Source: Acidobacteriota bacterium
GTDB lineage: Bacteria > Acidobacteriota > Blastocatellia > Pyrinomonadales > Pyrinomonadaceae
Direction: 5' to 3'
Length of the DNA: 64,000 bases
NCBI GenBank assembly: GCA_020199835.1
Contig: JAIVJV010000013.1
Location: 1 to 64,000 of the forward strand
A program made the position numbers and the translations under genes. Positions 5,308 to 17,061 of this stretch are shown here, piece by piece; within the stretch, counting starts at the first letter, position 1, and the number at the start of each line of letters is the position of its first letter. The notes under the pieces are model-generated. The model ran no database searches, was not told the DNA's origin, and saw nothing but the letters and a program-made list of their open reading frames with translations.

Positions 5308-6187
5308 GCATTTTCCTGTCTTGTTCCGCGAGTTCGGCGATCTTTTCCATCACCATGTCCGCGATCTCTTTGTGGGTGCGCAGACGGTCGGGCCTGTTCA
5401 GGTAATCGCTCAGATCGATCATTGGGCCGAAGTGCAGGCGAATGACTTCCTCACGGTTCCAGTTGCGCGCGACCTGTCGCGGCAGGCTGTTGCATAGTCC
5501 GGCGATGAAGACGGGGATCACCTGTGGCTTCGCGTCCATGATCAGTTTTCCGACGCCCGGTTGCGCGCGCAAAAACGAGTAGGGATCGTCGCCTTTGTTT
5601 CGCGTCCCTTCGGGATGAAAACCGATGACGTTGCCGCGGCCGTTGCGCGCGAGTTCGCTCAGCAGGCGAAACGAAAATTTATCGAACGCGCGTTTTTCGG
5701 GAATCGGGTGATCGCCGGCGGCGAAAAACGGCGGATACATGGACCACCAGCCCATTATCAGGTTCACCAATAATCCGAGTGGTGACTGGTAGAAGAATCG
5801 TCCGCGCACCGGGAAGAAAAGTTGTTTGCGCCATTTCGTCATGCGAAAGAGCATCGCGGATACGGCGAACATGTCGAAGAACGAACGATGATTCGCGACG
5901 AGCAGCAGCGGCCGCTCGCGTGACGCAGCCTCGACGTGTTCGAGGCCGTAGACGTTCATGATGTTGTAAGTGGAGAGGTGGATCCAGCCTGCGCCCATGG
6001 TGCTCTGGCACCACGTCCAGAACCGTTTCCACGCCCCGCGATTCATGCGCGTGGTCAGACGATAAGCAAAACGTTCGAAGCGTGTGAGAACGGCGAGTTC
6101 ATCTGCCGTGGGAACGAGAGGAGCGGATTCGACGGAAGTTGGTGTTAGTTCGTGGGAACGGTTCAAACGTGTCTCAACAGTTCTCAA
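5282..6187 (-). CDS. 1-acyl-sn-glycerol-3-phosphate acyltransferase family (PlsC-like)
   Basis: This protein is about 301 aa. The acyltransferase block I is VANHRSFFD (H100 and D105, the HX4D catalytic pair) and block III is FHPEGTRNKG (EGTR at 193-196). The family transfers an acyl chain to lysophosphatidate or a related acceptor at the inner membrane. No early ATG exists. The start given is a TTG at 6187, and a second TTG at 6166 is just as possible, so the N-terminus is uncertain. It overlaps the lipid kinase gene by 26 bases. The tandem hairpin repeat between metH and this gene lies immediately upstream. Confidence 0.85.
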   Translation of the reverse strand: MRTVETRLNRSHELTPTSVESAPLVPTADELAVLTRFERFAYRLTTRMNRGAWKRFWTWCQSTMGAGWIHLSTYNIMNVYGLEHVEAASRERPLLLVANHRSFFDMFAVSAMLFRMTKWRKQLFFPVRGRFFYQSPLGLLVNLIMGWWSMYPPFFAAGDHPIPEKRAFDKFSFRLLSELARNGRGNVIGFHPEGTRNKGDDPYSFLRAQPGVGKLIMDAKPQVIPVFIAGLCNSLPRQVARNWNREEVIRLHFGPMIDLSDYLNRPDRLRTHKEIADMVMEKIAELAEQDRKMHAATARNN

Positions 6188-6189
6188 GC

Positions 6190-6345
6190 GCTAACTCCAA
6201 CCAACGCCGAAGGCGTTTCCGAACTCCCGAACGCCACAGCGTTTCCAAACTACCAAACGCCACAGCGTTTCCGAACTACCAAACGCCTCGGCGTTAAGAC
6301 TCACGCGTTGGACGCAAACGCCTTCGGCGTTACTCGGTCGACTGA
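6190..6345. repeat. tandem 27-base palindrome-bearing repeat
   Basis: Three consecutive units of about 27 bases start with an AACGCC...GCGTTT palindrome and continue with CCGAACTACCAA or a close variant. Two diverged half-units follow (ACGCCTCGGCGTTAAG and AAACGCCTTCGGCGTT). The palindromic core changes from unit to unit (GAAGG, ACAG, TCGG) while the arms are kept. The array fills the gap between the end of metH and the start of the acyltransferase gene, both on the minus strand. Confidence 0.75.
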
Positions 6346-6362
6346 CAGGACATCAGAAGTAC

Positions 6363-9300
6363 TCACTCAATCGAGAAGTACTTCGCTTCCGGGTGGTGGA
6401 CAATAATAGCCGATGTTGATTGTTCGGGCTCCAGCTGAAACTCTTCCGTCAACGAAACGTCGATGCGCCCGGGATTCAGGAGCGTAAACAGTTTCTCCTG
6501 ATCCTCCAACCGCGGACACGCCGGATAACCAAAACTGTAACGCGAACCCTGGTACTGCTGATGAAACAAGCGCGACAGATTCGTCGCATCCTGACCAGCA
6601 ATCCCAAGCTCCTGCCGGACTCGCTTGTGCCAAAATTCAGCCAGCGCCTCCGCCGCTTCGACACTCAACCCGTGAAAATACAAGTAGTCGGCGTAATTGT
6701 CTGACTTGAACAACTCGTGCGCATACTCACTCGCGCGCCGGCCGACGGTCACGAGATGAAACGCAACGACGTCCATTCGTCCCGACTCCTGTGACGCAAA
6801 GAAATCCGCGAGACACAGATGCTTGCCCGCTGGTTGCCGTGGAAACGTGAAACGCACCTGCTCCCGCTGATTCTCGTCGTAAACGATCAGATCGTTGCCC
6901 GAAGACTGACACGCGAAATACCCATAAACCACTTTCGGAACGAGCAACTGCTCGCGTTTCGATCGCTCCTTGATTTCCTCGTAAATCGGCCGCACTTTGT
7001 CACGCACCAGCGCCTGGTACTGATCCGGCGGCGTCTTGCCCTGCTTGAACTGCCACTGACCTTTAAACAACGCGTTTTCGTTGACGTAAGCGAAAACGTC
7101 GTCAAGCGCGATGTCTTCAACGACACGTGAGCCGTAGAACGGCGGCGTTGGAATCGGAACCGCAGGATCGATCGCGGAACGCGTGGTGTGCGTCGTGTCA
7201 CCGAACGGCGCAGCGCCACGAGGCCGCGCGCTTTTGCGAATCCCGAGTTTCGCTTCCTCACCAACCAGGTCGTCAACATCTTCCGCAGCTTCAACCTTCG
7301 CCGCGGCCGTACTAGATCCGTTAGTTTCCGCCCGCTCAGAAGCGCCCACGAGTTGGTCCATCGTGTGCAAACCCGCAAACGCATCATGCGCGTAATAAAG
7401 CGACCCTTTGTAGATCGACTTCAGATCCTCTTCAACGTAACGCCGCGTCAACGCCGCGCCACCGAGAATCACCGGCACCTTCACGCCGCGCTCGTTCATC
7501 AACTCGAGGTTATCTTTCATGATCAACGTCGACTTCACGAGCAACCCGCTCATCCCAATCGCGTCCGCGCCTGTCTCGTCGTACGCCTGAAGAATGGCCT
7601 CGATCGGCTGCTTGATACCGAGGTTGTGCACCTTGTAACCGTTATTGGTGAGAATGATGTCCACAAGGTTCTTGCCGATATCGTGAACGTCGCCTTTCAC
7701 GGTCGCGAGCACCATCGTGCCCTTTGCAGTCGCGCCGCCTTTCTTCTCCATAAACGGCTCGAGAAAACGCACGGCAGCTTTCATCGCTTCGGCCGACTGC
7801 AACACGAAAGGCAACTGCATCTGCCCGCTGCCGAACAGATCGCCGACGACTTTCATGCCGTCGAGCAGAATGTTGTTGATGATGTCGAGCGCGGGATGTG
7901 TTTTGAGCGCGACTTTGAGTTCGTCTTCGAGACCGATCTTCTCACCGTCGATGATGTGGTTCTTCAAACGCTCTTCGACCGTGTCTCCTTTGGAAGCTTT
8001 TTTCGCCGCCTTCGACTTAACGCCTTCAAAGAGCTTCGTAAACTCGGTCAGCGGATCGTAAACACAGACGTCGTTTTCAAACTTGCGCTCGTCGTAGATC
8101 AGCTCGCGCGCGACCTTGATCTCTTTCTCGCCGATGCGATTCAACGGCTCGATCTTGCTGGCGTTGACGATCGCTGCATCGAGTCCCGCTTCCACGGCGT
8201 CATGGAGAAACACGGAGTTGAGCACGACGCGCGACGCAGGATTCAGGCCGAAAGAGACGTTCGAAACGCCGAGCAGCGTAAACGCGCCGGGCAGATCGCG
8301 CTTGATACGCTTGATGCCTTCGATCGTTTCGAGCGCGTTGCGGCGATCTTCTTCAATACCGGTCGAGATTGGCAGCGCGAGTGGATCGAAAAAAATGTCT
8401 TCCGCGGGCAAGCCTGCTTCGTTTTTCGCCTGTTCGTAAGCGCGCTTCGCGATCCTGAACTTGCCCTCGGCCGTGCGTGCCATGCCCTCTTCGTCGATCG
8501 TGCCGATCACGACGCTCGCGCCGTATCTTTTCGCGAGTTCGATCACCTTCAGAAAGCGCGGCACGCCGTCTTCGTAGTTCGTCGAGTTGAGAATCGACTT
8601 TCCGCCCGCGTGTTGCAGTCCGGCTTCCATCTTCTGCCACTCGGTCGAATCGAACATCAACGGGATCTTGACGTTCGTGACGAGACGAGACGCGAGTTCG
8701 TGCATGTCAGCTTCGCCGTCGCGCCCAACGAAATCGACGTTGACGTCGAGGATGTGCGCGCCTTCGCGTTCCTGTTCCTTGCCGAGCGCGACGAGACCGT
8801 CCCAGTCACCGGCGTTCAGCAGGTCGCGCATCTTCTTCGACCCGCTCGCGTTCACGCGTTCGCCGATGATCAAAAACGACGCGTCCTGCACGTAAGGCTG
8901 TTGCATGTAGATCGACGACGCTGCCGGAACGAGTTTTGGATTGCGTTGCTTCGGCGTGATCTGCTGCATCGCTTCAACGACGTGGCGCAGGTGCGCGGGC
9001 GTCGTGCCGCAACAACCGCCGACGACATTGACGCCGAAGTCGCTGGCGAAATGGACGATTTGCGCGGTGAAACTGTCCGGGGTTTCGTCGTAATGCATCT
9101 TGCCTTCGACGACCGACGGCAGACCCGCGTTTGGCAAAACCGAGATAGGCAGCGGCGCGTTTTCACAAAGGTAGCGGATGCTCTCGGTCATGTGTTTTGG
9201 ACCAGTGCCGCAGTTCATGCCGATGACGTCGATCGGAAACGGCGCGAGGGCCGTCAACGCGGCGGAGATCTCGGTGCCGTTGAGCATCGTGCCGAACGTT

Positions 9301-9881
9301 TCGATCGTGACTTGCGCGATGACGGGCACACGCGTGCGCCGTTCTTCAAACACCGAAAAGATCGCGCCGACCGCGGCTTTTGTTTGCAGCAGATCCTGGC
9401 ACGTCTCGACGATCAACAGATCGGCGCCGCCGTCGAGCAGTCCGCGTACCTGAACCGCGTAAGCGTCGCGTAGTTCGTTGAAAGAGATGTGGCCCAGCGT
9501 TGGCAGTTTTCGTCCCGGACCCATCGAACCGGCGACCCAACGCGGCTTTGCCTTGGTTGAGTAATCAGACGCAATGCGTTTCGCGAGACGCGCCGCGCGT
9601 ACGTTCATGTCGTACGCCTGATCGGCCATGTCATACTCGGCGAAGTCGACGGGTGTGCCGTTGAAGGAATTGGTTTCAATAACGTCGCAACCGACGTCGA
9701 GAAACGCGGTGTGCACGTTTTCAACCGCGTCGGGCCGCGTCACGAGCAGGTTCTCGTTGCAACCTTCGAAGCGTGGACCACCAAAGTCGTCGAGTGTCAG
9801 GTTTTGCACCTGGAGGTTGGTGCCCATTGCGCCGTCGAAGACGACGATGCGTTCTTTAATGGCGTCAAGCAGATTTGTCAT
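6363..9881 (-). CDS. metH: cobalamin-dependent methionine synthase
   Basis: This full-length MetH of 1172 aa transfers a methyl group from 5-methyltetrahydrofolate to homocysteine through cobalamin. All four modules are visible. The homocysteine/zinc domain (about 1-320) has C224 in MNCGTGP and C290/C291 in GGCCGTT. The pterin-binding domain (about 340-620) carries FLIIGERVNASGS. The B12 module (about 650-880) has DVHDIG with axial H733. The C-terminal activation domain contains YPACPRLEDQEKLF and ends near FSIE. A low-complexity Ala/Glu linker joins the B12 and activation modules. The ATG at 9881 was preferred over one ten codons upstream because it opens the conserved LLDAIKERIVVFDGAMGTNL. 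No clear Shine-Dalgarno stands before it. A SAM-II-like riboswitch and a terminator-like hairpin precede it, so expression should fall when SAM is plentiful. Confidence 0.97.
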   Translation of the reverse strand: MTNLLDAIKERIVVFDGAMGTNLQVQNLTLDDFGGPRFEGCNENLLVTRPDAVENVHTAFLDVGCDVIETNSFNGTPVDFAEYDMADQAYDMNVRAARLAKRIASDYSTKAKPRWVAGSMGPGRKLPTLGHISFNELRDAYAVQVRGLLDGGADLLIVETCQDLLQTKAAVGAIFSVFEERRTRVPVIAQVTIETFGTMLNGTEISAALTALAPFPIDVIGMNCGTGPKHMTESIRYLCENAPLPISVLPNAGLPSVVEGKMHYDETPDSFTAQIVHFASDFGVNVVGGCCGTTPAHLRHVVEAMQQITPKQRNPKLVPAASSIYMQQPYVQDASFLIIGERVNASGSKKMRDLLNAGDWDGLVALGKEQEREGAHILDVNVDFVGRDGEADMHELASRLVTNVKIPLMFDSTEWQKMEAGLQHAGGKSILNSTNYEDGVPRFLKVIELAKRYGASVVIGTIDEEGMARTAEGKFRIAKRAYEQAKNEAGLPAEDIFFDPLALPISTGIEEDRRNALETIEGIKRIKRDLPGAFTLLGVSNVSFGLNPASRVVLNSVFLHDAVEAGLDAAIVNASKIEPLNRIGEKEIKVARELIYDERKFENDVCVYDPLTEFTKLFEGVKSKAAKKASKGDTVEERLKNHIIDGEKIGLEDELKVALKTHPALDIINNILLDGMKVVGDLFGSGQMQLPFVLQSAEAMKAAVRFLEPFMEKKGGATAKGTMVLATVKGDVHDIGKNLVDIILTNNGYKVHNLGIKQPIEAILQAYDETGADAIGMSGLLVKSTLIMKDNLELMNERGVKVPVILGGAALTRRYVEEDLKSIYKGSLYYAHDAFAGLHTMDQLVGASERAETNGSSTAAAKVEAAEDVDDLVGEEAKLGIRKSARPRGAAPFGDTTHTTRSAIDPAVPIPTPPFYGSRVVEDIALDDVFAYVNENALFKGQWQFKQGKTPPDQYQALVRDKVRPIYEEIKERSKREQLLVPKVVYGYFACQSSGNDLIVYDENQREQVRFTFPRQPAGKHLCLADFFASQESGRMDVVAFHLVTVGRRASEYAHELFKSDNYADYLYFHGLSVEAAEALAEFWHKRVRQELGIAGQDATNLSRLFHQQYQGSRYSFGYPACPRLEDQEKLFTLLNPGRIDVSLTEEFQLEPEQSTSAIIVHHPEAKYFSIE

Positions 9882-9889
9882 AAGCAATA

Positions 9890-9920
9890 ACAAAGGCCCC
9901 GCGCTTAACAACGCGGAGCC
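9890..9920 (-). terminator. terminator-like hairpin between SAM-II aptamer and metH
   Basis: On the minus strand GGCTCCGCG (9920-9912) pairs with CGCGGGGCC (9903-9895) around an eight-base loop: nine pairs with one G-U, followed by TTTGTTATT. It lies about 20 bases after the aptamer and ends 13 bases before the metH ATG. That placement fits a riboswitch expression platform working by premature termination. It could also act by hindering ribosome access. Confidence 0.6.
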
Positions 9921-9940
9921 TAAAACTGTGACTCACCGAG

Positions 9941-9992
9941 CTGTTTAGCGGATTATTTTACGTGGCCGCAAGTCGCTTTAACTCACCACGTC
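9941..9992 (-). ncRNA. SAM-II (SAM_alpha) riboswitch aptamer upstream of metH
   Basis: On the minus strand CGTGG (9990-9986) pairs with CCACG (9965-9961). The loop contains TGAGTTAAAG and CTTGCGG, and the tail reads TAAAATAATCCGCTAAAC. GCGG of the loop (9969-9966) can pair with CCGC (9951-9948) past the first stem, giving an H-type pseudoknot. The order of conserved words (TGA-TTAA, CTTGC, CCACGTAAA, GCTAAA) matches the SAM-II class as I recall it from Rfam SAM_alpha and the solved structure. Its place just upstream of a methionine synthase gene fits. SAM-II is best known from Alpha- and Betaproteobacteria. Confidence 0.82.
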
Positions 9993-10041
9993 AAATTGTC
10001 AAAGCGTATTGAACCACAACTTGTCAGGCCGTGTAAATACG

Positions 10042-10131
10042 CAACGCCGAAGGCGTTGACTAATTCTAGCCCCGGGGTTGGCACAACCCTGGGTGGAAAC
10101 GCCCAAAAAGAACCAACGCTGAAAGCGTTGG
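10042..10131. repeat. composite three-hairpin intergenic element
   Basis: Three hairpins stand in a row: AACGCCGAAGGCGTT (10043-10057), a 10-bp stem CCCGGGGTTG-GCA-CAACCCTGGG (10071-10093), and CCAACGCTGAAAGCGTTGG (10113-10131). The same arrangement, with changed loops and spacers, recurs at 54856-54980. It lies between the divergent metH riboswitch and the RHS promoter. Bases 9993-10041 hold nothing I can name apart from whatever promoter drives metH. Confidence 0.75.
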
Positions 10132-10139
10132 AATTTTCG

Positions 10140-10168
10140 TTGACGAGAGTCACGCACTGTTCTATATT
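10140..10168 (+). promoter_or_regulatory. sigma-70-type promoter for the RHS gene
   Basis: TTGACG (10140-10145), a 17-base spacer and TATATT (10163-10168) make a strong housekeeping promoter. It predicts a start near 10175 and a leader of about 120 bases ending in a good Shine-Dalgarno (AAAGGAGA) before the ATG at 10298. The third hairpin of the repeat element ends nine bases upstream of the -35 box. Confidence 0.65.
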
Positions 10169-10297
10169 GCCGCGCACGCAACTGTTCAATGGCCGGTGGA
10201 GAGTTGTGTTCCCCCCGATCTCTCTACCTCCTCATTTAACAGTCTAACTCCCCCGAACAATTTAAAAACCGAACGATTTACCTAAAGGAGACGCCTC

Positions 10298-13200
10298 ATG
10301 CGGCACCGTACCCCTTACTCTCTTCTTCGCTCGTTCATCTCTGTGGCTTTGGCGCTGTCCCTCTTTGAAGTATCAACGCCGGCCGCTCCGAAAACAATCG
10401 TCCTTCTCGCAAAAGAGTCGAGTGTGAGTCTGAAGTTCTGGGCTCATGCCAACGGTTTGATGGCTTTGTTTCAAGGTAGGGGCGCGGCCGTGGGGCGCCC
10501 TCAGGAAAATCAGGAAGAACGTGATCTCCGCGTGGACCACCTTAATATCTTCCCGGGAAACGTAACTATCACATTTCCGGAACGTGTCTCGTTCCTCGCA
10601 GTTGCTTTCGATCAAAACGGTGACCCCATCGGTGGCGTAAAGTTCCGGTGGCATTCACACAACAACAACGGCCGCGGCCGCGGCACCAACATCTCTCGCA
10701 CGGGAGAGTTCAAACCGCCGACTCCCGGTGAGTACCGGGTTACCGCCGAAGGCGCAGGCAAACGAGCGGAGGTCACCGTTACCGTGTTGCCCGGTCAACG
10801 AAGACCACAACCAAACGAGACTCCGCTTGAAACGAAGCCGGTTTCAACGCGCGATCTTCCGCCGGGCGAAAGCGTCGCTAAACTAAACCGACCCAATTCG
10901 CGGATAAAACGCGCTCACGCTGCTCGCGCCACCGCAGCAACAGCCGCACCGATGTTTGTCGATGCTGGTTGGGACAATACTAACTACTGGTCTGCCGACG
11001 ATCCGGGAAACACTCCCGGCACGCCTCCCGGAACTCCGGTCGACAGCGGCGCCGGCAGCGGAAATTTCCAATTCGGCGCACCAGTGCTGAGTCTCCCCAG
11101 CCGTGGAACAGATGTAGCGCTCCACCTCGCTTACAGCTCACGCGTCTGGAACAAAGCCGGAACCCAGATGACCTACGACATTGACCGCAGTTGGCCCGCG
11201 CCCGGCTTTAATCTGGGCTTCGGCAAAATCCTCTACATGGGTTCATCCGGCGGCAGCATGATCGTCGAACAGGACGGCACGCGCCGGCCGTTTACCGGTC
11301 AGATCATCAACTATGGTTACGGCATCTCATTCAACGGTCACACCACTGATGGTTCGTTAATCGATTATAAAAGCTGGGTAAATTCGAGCGGCGTGATGAC
11401 TTTCGGGGAAATCAATCTACCCAACGGAACCCAGCTTCACTGTTACGCTACTGGTCCAGGCGGTGTGTACCCAACCAGCATCACTGATGTCCAGGGCAAT
11501 GTCGTCACCATCGCTTACGTCGGCAATCAGGGACCGAAGATCTCCTACATCAGCGATACGATGGGTCGCCTGATCAACTTTCATTACGACAGTCTTGGAC
11601 TGTTGACCGCAATTACTGCGCCTGGTTTCAACGGTGCTGGGGCGCGCACGCTCGTTCGTCTTACGTATCAGCAACTCTCATTGAACCCGGGATTCGCATA
11701 TCCGGCGATTCAAAGTACGGTCGTGCGCAACTGGAGCCCCTATATGATCAAGGGTATCTACTACCCGGCCAACGGCACCGGTTACTGGTTTGGCGACAGC
11801 GACTCGTATTCGAGTTACGGCATGCTGGCGAAGGTCGTCGAGCAGCGGGGCATGACTTTTTCCGGAGCCGCTCTCAATACCCAAGGCACGATCACGCAAG
11901 GCTCGTTGACTCGTCGAGAACAGTACAACTATCCCTTAACACCAAATTACGCGCTCACTGACGCGCCAACGTACACGAGTTGCACCGAGACGTGGTCCAG
12001 AGACGGAACCAATTTTGATAGCGCGACCACGACATACGAAGTGTTTGAGAACGCATCACCGCGTACCGTTACGGTGACATTGCCAAACGGCAGCAAGACC
12101 AAACAGTTCTCACACAATCTGCCCGGCAACGCGCTGGATGGTCTCGTTTACCAGGATCAAATCCTCAACTCTTCCAACACGGTGTTGCAGAGTAGCTATG
12201 TCCACTGGCAACCCGGATCCTACGATTCACCGCGCCCGTGGCGAGTTGAAACCACCAACGAGCTGGGACAGACGAACGCGACCGAATATACCTACGGCCC
12301 TCAGTTCAATCAGGTAACGGACATTCGCGAGTACGACTACAACGGCGCGTTGCTGCGTTCGCGGCGCACTACCTACGAAAACGGCGCAAACTACATGAAC
12401 CGGCAAATTCGTAATTTGCCGCTCGTCGTCGAAGTGTTTGGGCCGGACAATGTCACTCGCGTCGCACGAACCGAGTATCAGTACGACGGGCAAACTCTAC
12501 AGGACGCACCTAATGTCGTCGGCCATGCTTACAACCATAATCCCTACGGGCCGCAATATGAGATCTGTGATTGCGGCATGTGGGACCACTGGCAGCAGGA
12601 TTGTCTGCAATGGAACTGCTATTGGACCAGCGACTACAATCCGCTTACCGACTATCGCGGCAACGTCACGCAAATCACCAGCTACACCACCGCCGCTAAT
12701 CTCACCGGCGCGCTCGTGGAAACGCGACGATACGACATCACGGGCAACCTCGTGAGAGGCAGCAGCTCGTGCTGCGACGAAACCAGTTTCACTTACACCG
12801 ACGCCATGCAGTATTCGGCGCCGATGTCGGAGACGCGCGGCTCACCGACCGACCCTTACACCCAGGTCAAGATCAGCCGCACCTACGACTTCAATACCAG
12901 CTTGCCGCTGACGGCTACCGATCCCAATGGACGGCAGTCGCAAACCACTTACGACCCGGTGTCGCTGCGCGTAGCGAGCGCTATTGCCTCGACGGGCGCA
13001 CACACCGACCACACTTACAACGACGCTGCGATGAGCCTCACGTCAACCACGTACCTCGCGGCGAGTGAAGGCGGAGCCCTGGCTGAACAACGGACGAAGT
13101 TGTTGAACGGCCGCGGTCACGTGCGGCAGGACCAGGCACGCGGCGCCAACGGCGTGTGGGACCTGATCGATACGCTTTACGACAACATGGGCAACATAAC

Positions 13201-16200
13201 GCAGCAAACTCGCCCATATCGCAGTGGTGAAGCACAGCAGTGGAGCACGTTTACCTACGACGCGCTGGGCCGCACGACGCTCGTCACCACCCCGGACGGC
13301 AGCACGACACAGACTTTCTACAACGAAACGTCGCGTCCGAATGCCGCCTCGAACAATCCCGGCGAAACCCGGCGCATACGGGATCCGTGGGGCCGCGAAC
13401 GTTGGGGACGCAGCGACGTACTCGGGCAGTTAGTCGAAATCGTCGAACCCGCGGCGGACGGCGATGGCTCGGTCGCCGTCAACGGCATGGCCACCACCTA
13501 CACTTACAACACGCTCGGCAAACTAAGCGGGATCACGCAGGGAGCACAGACACGTTCGTTCAAATATGATTCTGTCGGACGTCTCGTAGCGCAAAAGCTG
13601 GCTGAACCCTCAGCCACGCTCAACGATGCGGGAACTTATGTCGGATCGGGAAGTTGGACGGACGTCTTCACCTACGACAGCCGTTCAAACGTTACGTCGC
13701 GCACTGACGCGCGTGGCGTGAAGACGATCCTGACCTACAACTCCGATCCGCTGAACCGCTTGCAGTCGATGTCGTTCGACACGAGCGGATTCGGCGACAC
13801 GGGCAATCCAATACTTCCGGCGGCCACGGTGACATATTCATACCGCACTAAGAGCAGTCCGACGGATCTGAAGGACGTGACGCAACTTGCCGGCATTTCG
13901 ACTGCGGGAGTTTCGACCGAGACTTTCCAGTACGACACGGAAGGGCGAGTAAGTGCGAAGACACTGACCGTCAGCACGCGTGCCGCGTATCCGTTCGTAA
14001 CGGATTACATCTACGACACTCTCGATCGCACTGTTGACGTGCGTTATCCGGCTCAATACGGCAACGGCGCACAACTTCGCAAGGTGGTACATCACAACTA
14101 CGACACGGCCAGCCGCTTGAATTCCATCACCTTCGATGGGCAGTGGTTTGCGTCAAACATCAACTATAACGCTTCGGGCCAGACCACTTCTCTTAACGTG
14201 GGTAATGGCACGAACCAGATGATCGAAAACTATAGTTACGATCCACAAACGGGACAGCTTTCGGGCCAGACCGTTGCTCGTTCTTCGACGCCGGCCAGTT
14301 ACCTGATGAACGTCAGTTACAACTACACCGGACCGAACGGCAAGCGCACCGGCCAGCTGGTTAAAATTCTAAATAATCTCGATCCCGGCAAAGATCGCGG
14401 TTACGAATACGACCCGCTGGGCAGGTTGAAGCGAGCTACGGGTGGGCAGAGTGTCAACTGGGCCCAACGTTACACTTACGATCGCTACGGCAATCGTAAT
14501 AACGCCTATTCGTACACCGCCGAGCAGTACATTCGTAACTTCTACCTGAGCGCGCTCGCGCGCCAGCCAGACTCCACGGAGTTATCGAATTGGCTGAGCA
14601 CGCTGCAAACGGCGTATGCCCAGGGGCAAGCGCAAATGTTGTCAGCGATGCAAAACCTCGGCACCACAGTCTTCACTTCGCAGGAATACATCAATCGCGG
14701 TCGTTCGGATCACGATTACGTCTACGACCTGTACAAAGCGTATCTCGTGCGTGAGCCTGATCCAGGTGGTTGGGCGTTCTGGGAAGGCGCCGTCGCACGC
14801 GACGGTCGCGCTGCAGTGCGTGCAGGCTTCGCGTTCAGTGGAGAGTTTAACCTGAAGGTGCAGGGCACCAGTCCGTACACACCGGCAGGCGGTGTTGGCG
14901 TCGGGTCTGACGGATGGGATGCCATCTGGCATACCGACACCAACAATCGCATTGCGGTGCCGGGCTGGAACTATGACGCCGCCGGCAATCAAACGCGCGT
15001 GCAAAGAGGCGCTGGCTGGCAGCGTTTTCAGTACGACGCTGCGAATCGTCTGGTGAAGGTCAAAGCCGACGACAACGTGACTCTTCTGGCGGAACACACC
15101 TACGGTGACACGACGCAACGACTGATGACCCTGGAGGCAGGTGTTCGCACGTTCTTCGTCGCCGAAGGTGGATCGACGATAGCAGAGTTTAGCGAAACGG
15201 GCGGTTCCACCACACCCTCGTGGTCGAAGAGCTACGTCTATTTCGGCCCGAGGTTGCTGTCCACGCTCGTGCCAGATGGCAGCGGCGGAGAGATGGCGGA
15301 ACATCATCACCCTGATCGTCTCGGGACGCGTCTAGTGACTAATCAGTCAACCGGTAGTTCGTTCCAGCAAGCAACGCTGCCGTTTGGCAATGTGCTCAGC
15401 ACGGAAACCAACGGACAGACCAAACGCTTGTTCACAACGTACGATCGTGGTCCAACTACCGGACTTGACTACGCGCTGAACCGTCACTACGATCCGCAAC
15501 AAGGAAGATTCACGCAGGTCGATCCGATCGGTATGCAGTCGGTGAGTTTGACGAGTCCGCAGACTCTGAATCTCTACGCTTACTGCTCGAACGATCCGGT
15601 GAACCAGGTCGATCCGAGTGGTCTCGGCTTTTTCAGCTTCCTCAAGAAGCTGTTCAAAGGCATCGTGAAACTGATCAGTAAGATTCTCAGCAACAAATGG
15701 GTCCTGCTGGTCGTGGGTATTGCGCTGGGTGTGATATCCGGTTTCGCGTTCTACTGGGCTGCTACAATCACAACGCAGTTCTTCTTGCCGGCTGCGATAA
15801 CGCTGGCAGGGATGTCCGCGGCTCTGATTGTATCGGCGTTTCACCCAAATTTCCTGAGGGTGATACGTATTGCAGGGGCAATAGCATCGACGGTTCAGGG
15901 AGCTATCGGCCTTATCAACCGGACGATCAACGGCCGCATTCTCGCGACAACGCCACCGTTCAATCCTGGATCGGGTGTTGGACCAGTCAACAGCTTCCAG
16001 GGCGTTGACGCGAATGGACGAGCGCCACTGACTCCGCTGCAAAAAGCGGCGTTTGATTCCAACGTCGCGTATCTGCTGCTGCTGCTCAAGGACAAGAAAT
16101 CGGAGTGCGCGAAGTTCTTGAGAAAGCAATTGGGACTCAGCGGCACGCGCATCGCCAGAACCGTGGAGGGTCTCCGTCCGTTTAATGGCTTCGCATCAAC

Positions 16201-16519
16201 TATAAGTCTGAAAAACGCCGGAATCCTGCCGCAAAGCGCTTCGGGCTCGACGAGTATAAGCGTGGCGGCGCTATTTGCCGCCTACGTTCCCGGGGCCGCG
16301 CAAGCCGGGTTTGCAACTCGTGATGACAGGGGAGCGACCCAGCTCGATATCTATTTCGGCACTGGGTTCAAACCGCAGGATATCCTTCACGAGACGCTGC
16401 ACGCGTTCTTCGGAGCGAGTGACTCGGCTCTTGCGGCCAGGCTGGGTGTTACAATTATTCCTGGAGTTCACACCAGCCCGATATCCGATGCTCTCAGGGA
16501 TGGAGGTTGTGGTTATTGA
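10298..16519 (+). CDS. secreted RHS/YD-repeat protein with DUF4214-like insert and C-terminal HETLH zincin-like tail
   Basis: The 2073-aa protein opens with a signal-like N-terminus (to about residue 30), then an Ig-like segment near 80-165. RHS/YD repeats follow over most of residues 250-1780, with many xYDxxGR units. A Cys/Trp-rich patch (ICDCGMWDHWQQDCLQWNCY) lies near residues 755-775. A DUF4214-like helical segment (about 1409-1520; FYLSALARQPDSTELSNWL) interrupts the repeats. The RHS core closes with NLYAYCSNDPVNQVDPSG at about 1756-1773. The last 300 residues form a variable tail with hydrophobic stretches (about 1797-1845) and HETLH at 2031-2035, a likely zinc peptidase motif; H2058 or an acidic residue could be the third ligand. 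In RHS families such tails are commonly toxins or effectors. The stop overlaps the start of a small secreted protein gene (TGATG). Confidence 0.9.
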   Translation: MRHRTPYSLLRSFISVALALSLFEVSTPAAPKTIVLLAKESSVSLKFWAHANGLMALFQGRGAAVGRPQENQEERDLRVDHLNIFPGNVTITFPERVSFLAVAFDQNGDPIGGVKFRWHSHNNNGRGRGTNISRTGEFKPPTPGEYRVTAEGAGKRAEVTVTVLPGQRRPQPNETPLETKPVSTRDLPPGESVAKLNRPNSRIKRAHAARATAATAAPMFVDAGWDNTNYWSADDPGNTPGTPPGTPVDSGAGSGNFQFGAPVLSLPSRGTDVALHLAYSSRVWNKAGTQMTYDIDRSWPAPGFNLGFGKILYMGSSGGSMIVEQDGTRRPFTGQIINYGYGISFNGHTTDGSLIDYKSWVNSSGVMTFGEINLPNGTQLHCYATGPGGVYPTSITDVQGNVVTIAYVGNQGPKISYISDTMGRLINFHYDSLGLLTAITAPGFNGAGARTLVRLTYQQLSLNPGFAYPAIQSTVVRNWSPYMIKGIYYPANGTGYWFGDSDSYSSYGMLAKVVEQRGMTFSGAALNTQGTITQGSLTRREQYNYPLTPNYALTDAPTYTSCTETWSRDGTNFDSATTTYEVFENASPRTVTVTLPNGSKTKQFSHNLPGNALDGLVYQDQILNSSNTVLQSSYVHWQPGSYDSPRPWRVETTNELGQTNATEYTYGPQFNQVTDIREYDYNGALLRSRRTTYENGANYMNRQIRNLPLVVEVFGPDNVTRVARTEYQYDGQTLQDAPNVVGHAYNHNPYGPQYEICDCGMWDHWQQDCLQWNCYWTSDYNPLTDYRGNVTQITSYTTAANLTGALVETRRYDITGNLVRGSSSCCDETSFTYTDAMQYSAPMSETRGSPTDPYTQVKISRTYDFNTSLPLTATDPNGRQSQTTYDPVSLRVASAIASTGAHTDHTYNDAAMSLTSTTYLAASEGGALAEQRTKLLNGRGHVRQDQARGANGVWDLIDTLYDNMGNITQQTRPYRSGEAQQWSTFTYDALGRTTLVTTPDGSTTQTFYNETSRPNAASNNPGETRRIRDPWGRERWGRSDVLGQLVEIVEPAADGDGSVAVNGMATTYTYNTLGKLSGITQGAQTRSFKYDSVGRLVAQKLAEPSATLNDAGTYVGSGSWTDVFTYDSRSNVTSRTDARGVKTILTYNSDPLNRLQSMSFDTSGFGDTGNPILPAATVTYSYRTKSSPTDLKDVTQLAGISTAGVSTETFQYDTEGRVSAKTLTVSTRAAYPFVTDYIYDTLDRTVDVRYPAQYGNGAQLRKVVHHNYDTASRLNSITFDGQWFASNINYNASGQTTSLNVGNGTNQMIENYSYDPQTGQLSGQTVARSSTPASYLMNVSYNYTGPNGKRTGQLVKILNNLDPGKDRGYEYDPLGRLKRATGGQSVNWAQRYTYDRYGNRNNAYSYTAEQYIRNFYLSALARQPDSTELSNWLSTLQTAYAQGQAQMLSAMQNLGTTVFTSQEYINRGRSDHDYVYDLYKAYLVREPDPGGWAFWEGAVARDGRAAVRAGFAFSGEFNLKVQGTSPYTPAGGVGVGSDGWDAIWHTDTNNRIAVPGWNYDAAGNQTRVQRGAGWQRFQYDAANRLVKVKADDNVTLLAEHTYGDTTQRLMTLEAGVRTFFVAEGGSTIAEFSETGGSTTPSWSKSYVYFGPRLLSTLVPDGSGGEMAEHHHPDRLGTRLVTNQSTGSSFQQATLPFGNVLSTETNGQTKRLFTTYDRGPTTGLDYALNRHYDPQQGRFTQVDPIGMQSVSLTSPQTLNLYAYCSNDPVNQVDPSGLGFFSFLKKLFKGIVKLISKILSNKWVLLVVGIALGVISGFAFYWAATITTQFFLPAAITLAGMSAALIVSAFHPNFLRVIRIAGAIASTVQGAIGLINRTINGRILATTPPFNPGSGVGPVNSFQGVDANGRAPLTPLQKAAFDSNVAYLLLLLKDKKSECAKFLRKQLGLSGTRIARTVEGLRPFNGFASTISLKNAGILPQSASGSTSISVAALFAAYVPGAAQAGFATRDDRGATQLDIYFGTGFKPQDILHETLHAFFGASDSALAARLGVTIIPGVHTSPISDALRDGGCGY

Positions 16520-17061
16520 TGGTTAGTGGAAGTTTCAGTAACCAGGTTCTGCTCGTGGTCGTTCTGCTTGCGCCGGCATTAATAGCCGGCGCAAGTGGTC
16601 CGCCCATGGCTGAAAACTTCCTCGTGGCTGAAGGTTTCAACGCTGCGCAGCAGGTTCACTCCCCTACCGAAGACGTGCAATCGAAGCCGGTTGACCACAA
16701 GGTCGCCCGGACTATCGACAGCCGTAAAGAAGGAGGGGGACTGTACCTGCTGATTAGCGTGGCGCCCGAAGACTTCGTACGCGAACGGATGACGCAGCTC
16801 GCTCGCCAACTCAACCGGGACTATGAGAATGAGAGCAAGTTGATCGTCTCAATTTTCGATAACGAAACGACCGCGCGAAACGTCATTCCCGCCGGACATC
16901 AATATTCCGAATTCAAAAAGGCCGAACGTGGCGTCTACCATCTGGACCGCAGGAAAGGCGTCGAATACCTTCACTTCTCCACCAAACCCGGTCGCCCCTC
17001 AAACGAGATTAAGCTAAACCTCCGCCGTGCTCGCCCGCAGCGAACACAGAAAACTACGTGA
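16519..17061 (+). CDS. small secreted protein of unknown function, coupled to the RHS gene
   Basis: The protein is 180 aa from the ATG at 16519, which overlaps the RHS stop by one base (TGATG), a sign of translational coupling. A hydrophobic signal-type segment ([16 protein letters not shown]) ends near residue 24, so the product should be exported. The mature part has an alpha/beta look ([34 protein letters not shown]) and a basic C-terminal end. I recognise no family. Position and size suggest a cognate partner of the RHS tail, for example an immunity or chaperone-like protein, but this is inference from context only. A perfect 11-bp inverted repeat sits inside the signal-peptide coding region. 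Confidence 0.7.
16567..16595. repeat. perfect 11-bp inverted repeat inside a coding sequence
   Basis: CTTGCGCCGGC (16567-16577) and GCCGGCGCAAG (16585-16595) flank the loop ATTAATA. The hairpin would be very stable. It begins about 48 bases after the start codon of the coupled secreted protein, in its signal-peptide region. No T-run follows, so it is not an ordinary terminator. Confidence 0.75.

Follow-up and report, generated by a model that had tools for sequence, protein, structure and literature searches.

A candidate toxin-immunity gene pair of an RHS protein with a zincin-like tail and a small exported protein in an Acidobacteriota bacterium

The gene pair and its location

The window, i.e. 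the whole stretch of 64,000 nucleotides analysed in this study (positions 1 to 64,000 of contig JAIVJV010000013.1, assembly GCA_020199835.1, Pyrinomonadaceae), carries a large RHS gene and a small gene overlapping its end. The pair is flanked by metH, on the minus strand and reaching to 9911, and by coaD, both names being our reading of the sequences. The following features were assigned:

10298..16519, + strand: RHS protein gene, 2073 aa (ORF; Pfam RHS_repeat and DUF4214; TIGR03696 core)
14672..14851, + strand: DUF4214 domain between RHS repeats, best stretch residues 1459-1518 (Pfam)
15380..15625, + strand: RHS-associated core, residues 1695-1776 (TIGR03696, NCBIfam)
15629..16012, + strand: first part of the tail, hydrophobic, probable membrane-helix module (hydropathy; common to two relatives)
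16013..16516, + strand: C-terminal zincin-like domain, 168 aa (tail alignment, model)
16388..16402, + strand: HETLH motif, residues 2031-2035 of 2073 (H, E and H shared by all 8 aligned tails)
16502..16506, + strand: GGAGG, possible ribosome-binding site within the 3' end of the RHS gene (read from the sequence)
16519..17061, + strand: small gene for a 180-aa exported protein, a candidate for the immunity role (ORF, hydropathy, profiles)

In the RHS protein, an N-terminal hydrophobic export segment is followed by RHS repeats, a DUF4214 insert, the RHS core and a tail. Judged by hydropathy, the protein begins with basic residues and continues into a hydrophobic core, which resembles a Sec export signal. 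The RHS repeats and the RHS-associated core, recognised by Pfam and NCBIfam respectively, precede a variable C-terminus, the ends being different in the genomes G121 and G139. Two DPxG motifs are located in the core at residues 1742 and 1772, and from published RHS proteins we infer that the DPxG site of the core is likely the site of autocleavage. No VgrG domain was listed for the RHS protein by the Pfam and NCBIfam searches.

The plug-in before the last RHS repeats is variable as well. It is DUF4214 in the window; at a site judged similar by eye, G139 (L097) has the Ig-like domain N_BRCA1_IG and G121 (L012) an insert without a Pfam match. This variable plug-in may be an exposed binding domain.

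The coaD flank was also inspected at 15 loci of 14 other genomes of the same genus, covering up to 1500 bases and less at contig ends. Within this distance neither the RHS gene nor the small gene was detected, and metH was present at 11 of the 15 loci, sometimes with another gene in between. The comparison fits a joint gain or loss of both genes.

The small gene and its product

The RHS stop codon TGA (16517-16519) overlaps the ATG of the small gene (16519-16521), and the resulting TGATG at 16517-16521 is read as the initial annotation had described it. From the end of the GGAGG to this ATG there are 12 nt. The 180-aa product has an N-terminal hydrophobic core with a Kyte-Doolittle value of 3.12 over 11 residues, and no Lys or Arg precedes this core. 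Its earlier description as an exported protein, assessed here by hydropathy, is supported by the strong core; the lack of a basic residue in front of it speaks against this. An N-terminal hydrophobic core was found in 21 of 21 aligned small proteins, whose start codons were picked by a script favouring a hydrophobic N-terminus; an internal one occurs in two of the 21.

The small protein had been noted as lacking a known family, and searches of Pfam, NCBIfam, PHROGs and PADLOC likewise gave nothing convincing. The 21 small proteins share no consistent Pfam or NCBIfam match, and no immunity family is among their matches in these two databases (E up to 0.1). The mature small protein was modelled with good confidence as an alpha+beta domain with pLDDT blocks of 92-96 over residues 61-120, and the best structural matches of this model are weak. 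Used alone as query, the small protein found relatives in two genomes (E 2.8e-8 and 5.3e-8). A direct BLASTP comparison of the window and G155 small proteins was marginal (E 0.039).

The tail of the RHS protein

Behind the closing DPSGLG the RHS protein continues for 296 aa, in agreement with the tail of about 300 residues that had been proposed; the start given for it, 15610, falls in another frame, and counted in the RHS frame the codon that follows DPSGLG lies at 15629. Hydrophobic segments come first and the 168-aa domain follows. The presence of such segments, also part of the initial annotation, is borne out by hydrophobic 19-residue windows beginning at tail residues 15-29, 50-53 and 78. 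HETLH, reported to lie near the RHS end, indeed occupies residues 2031-2035 of 2073, and from the composition of the tail only 0.0004 HExxH motifs are expected.

Eight tails were aligned, and all of them keep both His and the Glu of the motif, an Asp downstream of it and a C-terminal Cys, while the identity of the other tails to the window tail is 23-30%. The Asp, aligned in 8 of 8 with a spacing that varies between subgroups, is a candidate third zinc ligand. The whole tail contains only two cysteines, residues 1937 and 2071, between which a disulfide is conceivable.

Some of the zincin toxin families around Tox-MPTase1-5 and Tox-HopH1 are represented by Pfam models. No match of the window tail to the Tox-MPTase1-5, M91 or M35 models was obtained (Pfam, E up to 1), and no convincing family was assigned to it by Pfam (E up to 1), NCBIfam, PHROGs and PADLOC; a weak PHROG match concerns the membrane part. 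The tail relatives show weak matches to metallopeptidase families, namely SprT-like in two of eight (best E 0.0029), Aspzincin_M35 in two of eight (best E 0.015) and M91 in one of eight (E 0.022). In the AlphaFold2 model of the tail the mean pLDDT is 65.9 and values stay under 50 across residues 59-114; the motif falls within a predicted helix, 121-133. With this low-confidence model as query, no zincin fold was among the listed matches of the fold searches.

A search with the whole tail in 162 genomes of the class gave only two other matches, in G139 and G121, covering about tail residues 1-135 at 61-63% identity. One of these two module-sharing RHS proteins ends in DUF4329 and is followed by an overlapping, different small gene; the other ends in sequence without a known family and has a membrane protein downstream. 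Because the two relatives carry other ends together with other small genes, the membrane module is the constant part, and the end and the small gene swap together.

Pairing of tail and small gene in related genomes

When 158 genomes of the class were searched with a profile of the zincin end, 17 of them gave matches, at 19 places in all, several of which are chance matches at the cut-off used (E up to 0.05). ORFs were read at the window, both G155 places, L105-L112, L114, L119 and L121 (leaving L113 and L115-L118). The places in G009, G043, G062, G123, G141 and G157:C19 do not, as far as read, represent RHS tails like that of the window. A profile of the small protein, built from eight members, detected 43 places in 31 of the 158 genomes. 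At seven of the 19 tail places a small-family place lies directly downstream on the same strand: the window, G155:C96, G157:C45, G090, G082, G096 and G095, the last with a broken tail. In G155:C96 the RHS gene is broken into two frames. The upstream genes of G090, G082 and G091 scored above the cut-off for RHS repeats.

Since six of the seven paired neighbours, the window included, had seeded the eight-member profile (G096 had not), two further profiles were run against 2645 ORFs. One was made solely of ten solitary relatives without an RHS-like upstream gene, eight of which had come via the eight-member profile, and it is accordingly not fully independent. It matched the small proteins of the window (9.4e-11) and G155 (7.3e-9) and the genes behind the tails of G157 (1.5e-9), G090 (3.2e-8), G082 (1.7e-13), G096 (2.8e-17), G058 (2.4e-23) and G086 (2.5e-17); the match to the G095 neighbour was weak (0.014). 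Six of the seven paired neighbours are thus clear matches and the seventh, G095, is a weak one. The other profile, in which the window protein was combined with two solitary relatives, matched G090 (1.8e-14) and G095 (1.7e-6), gave weak values for G096 (0.0012) and G082 (0.0059), and had no match among these ORFs to the neighbours in G155, G157, G058 and G086.

Absence of the small gene beside homologous tails had been named as a point that would speak against the proposed pairing. The outcome mostly favours the pairing: relatives of the gene lie directly behind the related HExxH tails of G155, G157, G090, G082 and G096 and behind the broken tail of G095; the one exception is G155:C21, where no small-family partner follows an orphan fragment of a zincin tail. 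The layout of a polymorphic toxin with a partner, which the initial annotation had recognised, gains support from this conserved pairing and from the behaviour of the tails as cassettes in relatives.

Such displaced tail cassettes are present in G086, G096 and G155, and none was seen in the window. An example is given by a 3.5-kb contig of G086, on which an RHS core with a HEFLH tail, an RHS core with a HEVLH tail and a small-family gene, and another RHS core stand in this order; the small gene behind the HEFLH tail is outside this family. In G096, an RHS core with a HELAH tail and a small-family gene is followed by two further RHS cores. In the case of G155:C21 (L093, 2-1876), a HETGH tail and an exported neighbour precede the orphan zincin tail, which is of the window type. 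This exported neighbour has a weak CarboxypepD_reg match.

The window genome itself (G000) encodes more RHS proteins with other HExxH tails and other neighbours, with HEAGH on C12 and HEVGH on C18. On G000:C18 (L101), the HEVGH RHS gene (6613-11907, minus strand) is overlapped by the next frame (5615-6679, minus strand), whose product, a beta-propeller of the YCF48/BNR type with a hydrophobic N-terminal stretch, would be an unusual candidate partner.

The small family outside HExxH tails

The upstream gene was examined at 28 of the 43 small-family places and, separately, at G096:C3. Seven of the 28 are behind an HExxH tail, two behind a broken or remnant tail, two behind other tail types (G091, G119), and 17 have no RHS-like upstream gene according to a regex search; G096 adds an eighth HExxH case outside the 28. 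The small family is therefore not exclusive to HExxH tails, which weakens a strict one-to-one immunity reading. Other immunity families can serve several toxin types and also occur at loci that lack a toxin gene, according to the available text of Zhang et al. 2012 (PMC3482391).

In G091 (L171, 1262-7762, minus strand), the small-family gene lies behind the gene of a 2167-aa protein with FG-GAP and RHS sequences; its tail contains HELVAH, which exceeds HExxH by one residue. In G119 (L135/L172, 2-1291, plus strand), a small-family member follows a gene end with the stretch HTVTDSTSPAH, which to us is reminiscent of motifs of zinc phospholipase C and S1-P1 nuclease. This upstream gene has no Pfam or NCBIfam match, RHS repeats included. 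Broken or remnant zincin tails in G095 (L169) and G071 (L170) stand before small-family genes that are still open, a pattern as expected of orphan immunity genes. At least two members, in G155:C96 (L094, 245-1258, minus strand) and G158 (L149), have the small-family domain fused to what by eye are ankyrin-like repeats. Both fusion proteins have a hydrophobic start, and the one in G155 is located near a tail/partner pair, beyond a transposase-like gene.

A broader view, which we offer tentatively and hold at clearly less than even odds, is that the small family represents a general exported superfamily of immunity proteins or protease inhibitors in this class of Acidobacteriota, corresponding in the periplasm to what the SUKH and SuFu immunity families are in the cytoplasm. 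It would be reused behind several unrelated RHS tails and kept as lone orphans and in ankyrin-like fusions, its main clients being uncatalogued, cysteine-flanked zincin toxins of the HExxH...D type.

A candidate toxin-immunity cassette and its alternatives

Since tail and small protein recur together in related bacteria, they look like a toxin-immunity pair. We consider it probable, at roughly 70%, that the gene pair is a toxin-immunity cassette composed of a Sec-exported RHS polymorphic toxin, a zincin-like warhead and an exported immunity protein. Most likely this is a new pair of a general kind that is already known. In the following scheme, cleavage, delivery, protease activity, substrate, toxicity and protection are what we infer. 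The 2073-aa protein would be exported through Sec, as its N-terminus suggests, and would form the RHS shell expected from its family. A probable cut after the closing DPSG would free the tail with its membrane-helix module and zincin-like domain, the latter presumably acting as a zinc-dependent protease outside the cytoplasm of a neighbouring cell. A protease role is suggested because the domain combines HExxH, the conserved downstream Asp as possible third ligand and the two cysteines as possible disulfide. The overlapping gene would provide a small exported alpha+beta protein that binds and blocks the domain in the periplasm of the producer.

Instead of conferring immunity, the small protein might be secreted together with the tail as a helper or chaperone for its folding, holding or delivery. 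Overlap coupling and export would suit a chaperone equally well, and small-family members beside other tail types and without an RHS-like neighbour agree with this too. However, a helper of the shell should track the constant part, whereas the small gene changes with the tail, as seen in G121, G139 and the other G086 cassette, and we regard the helper role as unlikely. Less probable still is that the zincin is a processing protease, freeing or maturing the RHS protein or its partner, rather than a toxin. Releasing metallopeptidases do occur in polymorphic toxins according to the available text of Zhang et al. 2012 (PMC3482391), but these precede the toxin domain; here the domain forms the extreme C-terminus with nothing after it, and a means of autocleavage is already at hand in the DPxG motifs of the core.

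About as improbable is a neutral pair, in which the tail would have decayed or would serve as a structural domain. The broken and remnant tails in G095 and G071 point in this direction, and the zincin fold is not established by a tail model of such low mean pLDDT. Against this, HExxH, Asp and Cys are invariant despite the low identity of the tails to that of the window, and the RHS frame of the window is open over all of its 2073 codons.

Comparison with known systems

A close functional parallel is found in Pseudomonas aeruginosa, where the C-terminal metallopeptidase of VgrG2b is a periplasmic HExxH toxin and PA0261 its downstream-encoded immunity protein, which needs its signal peptide, as stated in the accessible part of the report (PMC6899460). 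Common to both pairs, as described there, are a C-terminal HExxH on a delivery protein and a small gene directly downstream with an export signal; the two are likened by description and not by sequence. According to the same text, the carrier of VgrG2b is a T6SS VgrG spike, in contrast to the RHS carrier with a Sec-type start in the window, and its peptidase is a thermolysin-like gluzincin with Glu as third ligand, in contrast to the conserved Asp after HExxH here. In the best reading, the window pair would work like VgrG2b and PA0261 but be carried differently. TssK gave no match in the window's own genome, which is 83% complete.

Zincin toxins with HExxH on RHS proteins were described by Zhang et al. 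2012 (PMC3482391), including Tox-MPTase1-5, Tox-HopH1 and others. As far as the available text goes, these resemble the window tail as HExxH C-terminal warheads behind RHS repeats, and several are listed with T2SS or Sec export. In the available part of that paper's table, Tox-MPTase1-5 and Tox-HopH1 are entered with neither an immunity protein nor an occurrence in Acidobacteria, whereas here the tail is paired with an exported family.

A further parallel is provided by bacterial teneurin-like proteins, for which the available text (PMC13018210) describes a YD/RHS shell, in many cases a predicted signal peptide, and a DPxG cleavage motif. A variable short toxic C-terminus with a matching immunity gene directly downstream, and no known delivery machine, are reported there as well. 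In that text the neutralised C-terminus described has ADP-ribosyltransferase activity, unlike the zincin-like end here, and the two DPxG motifs are about 20 residues apart, compared with 30 in the window. The likeness concerns shell, cleavage motif, tail and downstream gene as given in that account. The teneurin-like proteins offer a model of how an RHS shell might combine DPxG cleavage with a downstream immunity gene in the absence of known delivery machinery.

In literature surveyed by title or start of abstract, we found no treatment of this tail or its partner in Acidobacteriota. To our knowledge, this phylum has been little studied for competition. With this locus, RHS zincin warheads gain a specific exported family as partner, and the pairing is conserved; these findings suggest that Acidobacteriota may exchange protease-tail cassettes on exported RHS shells.
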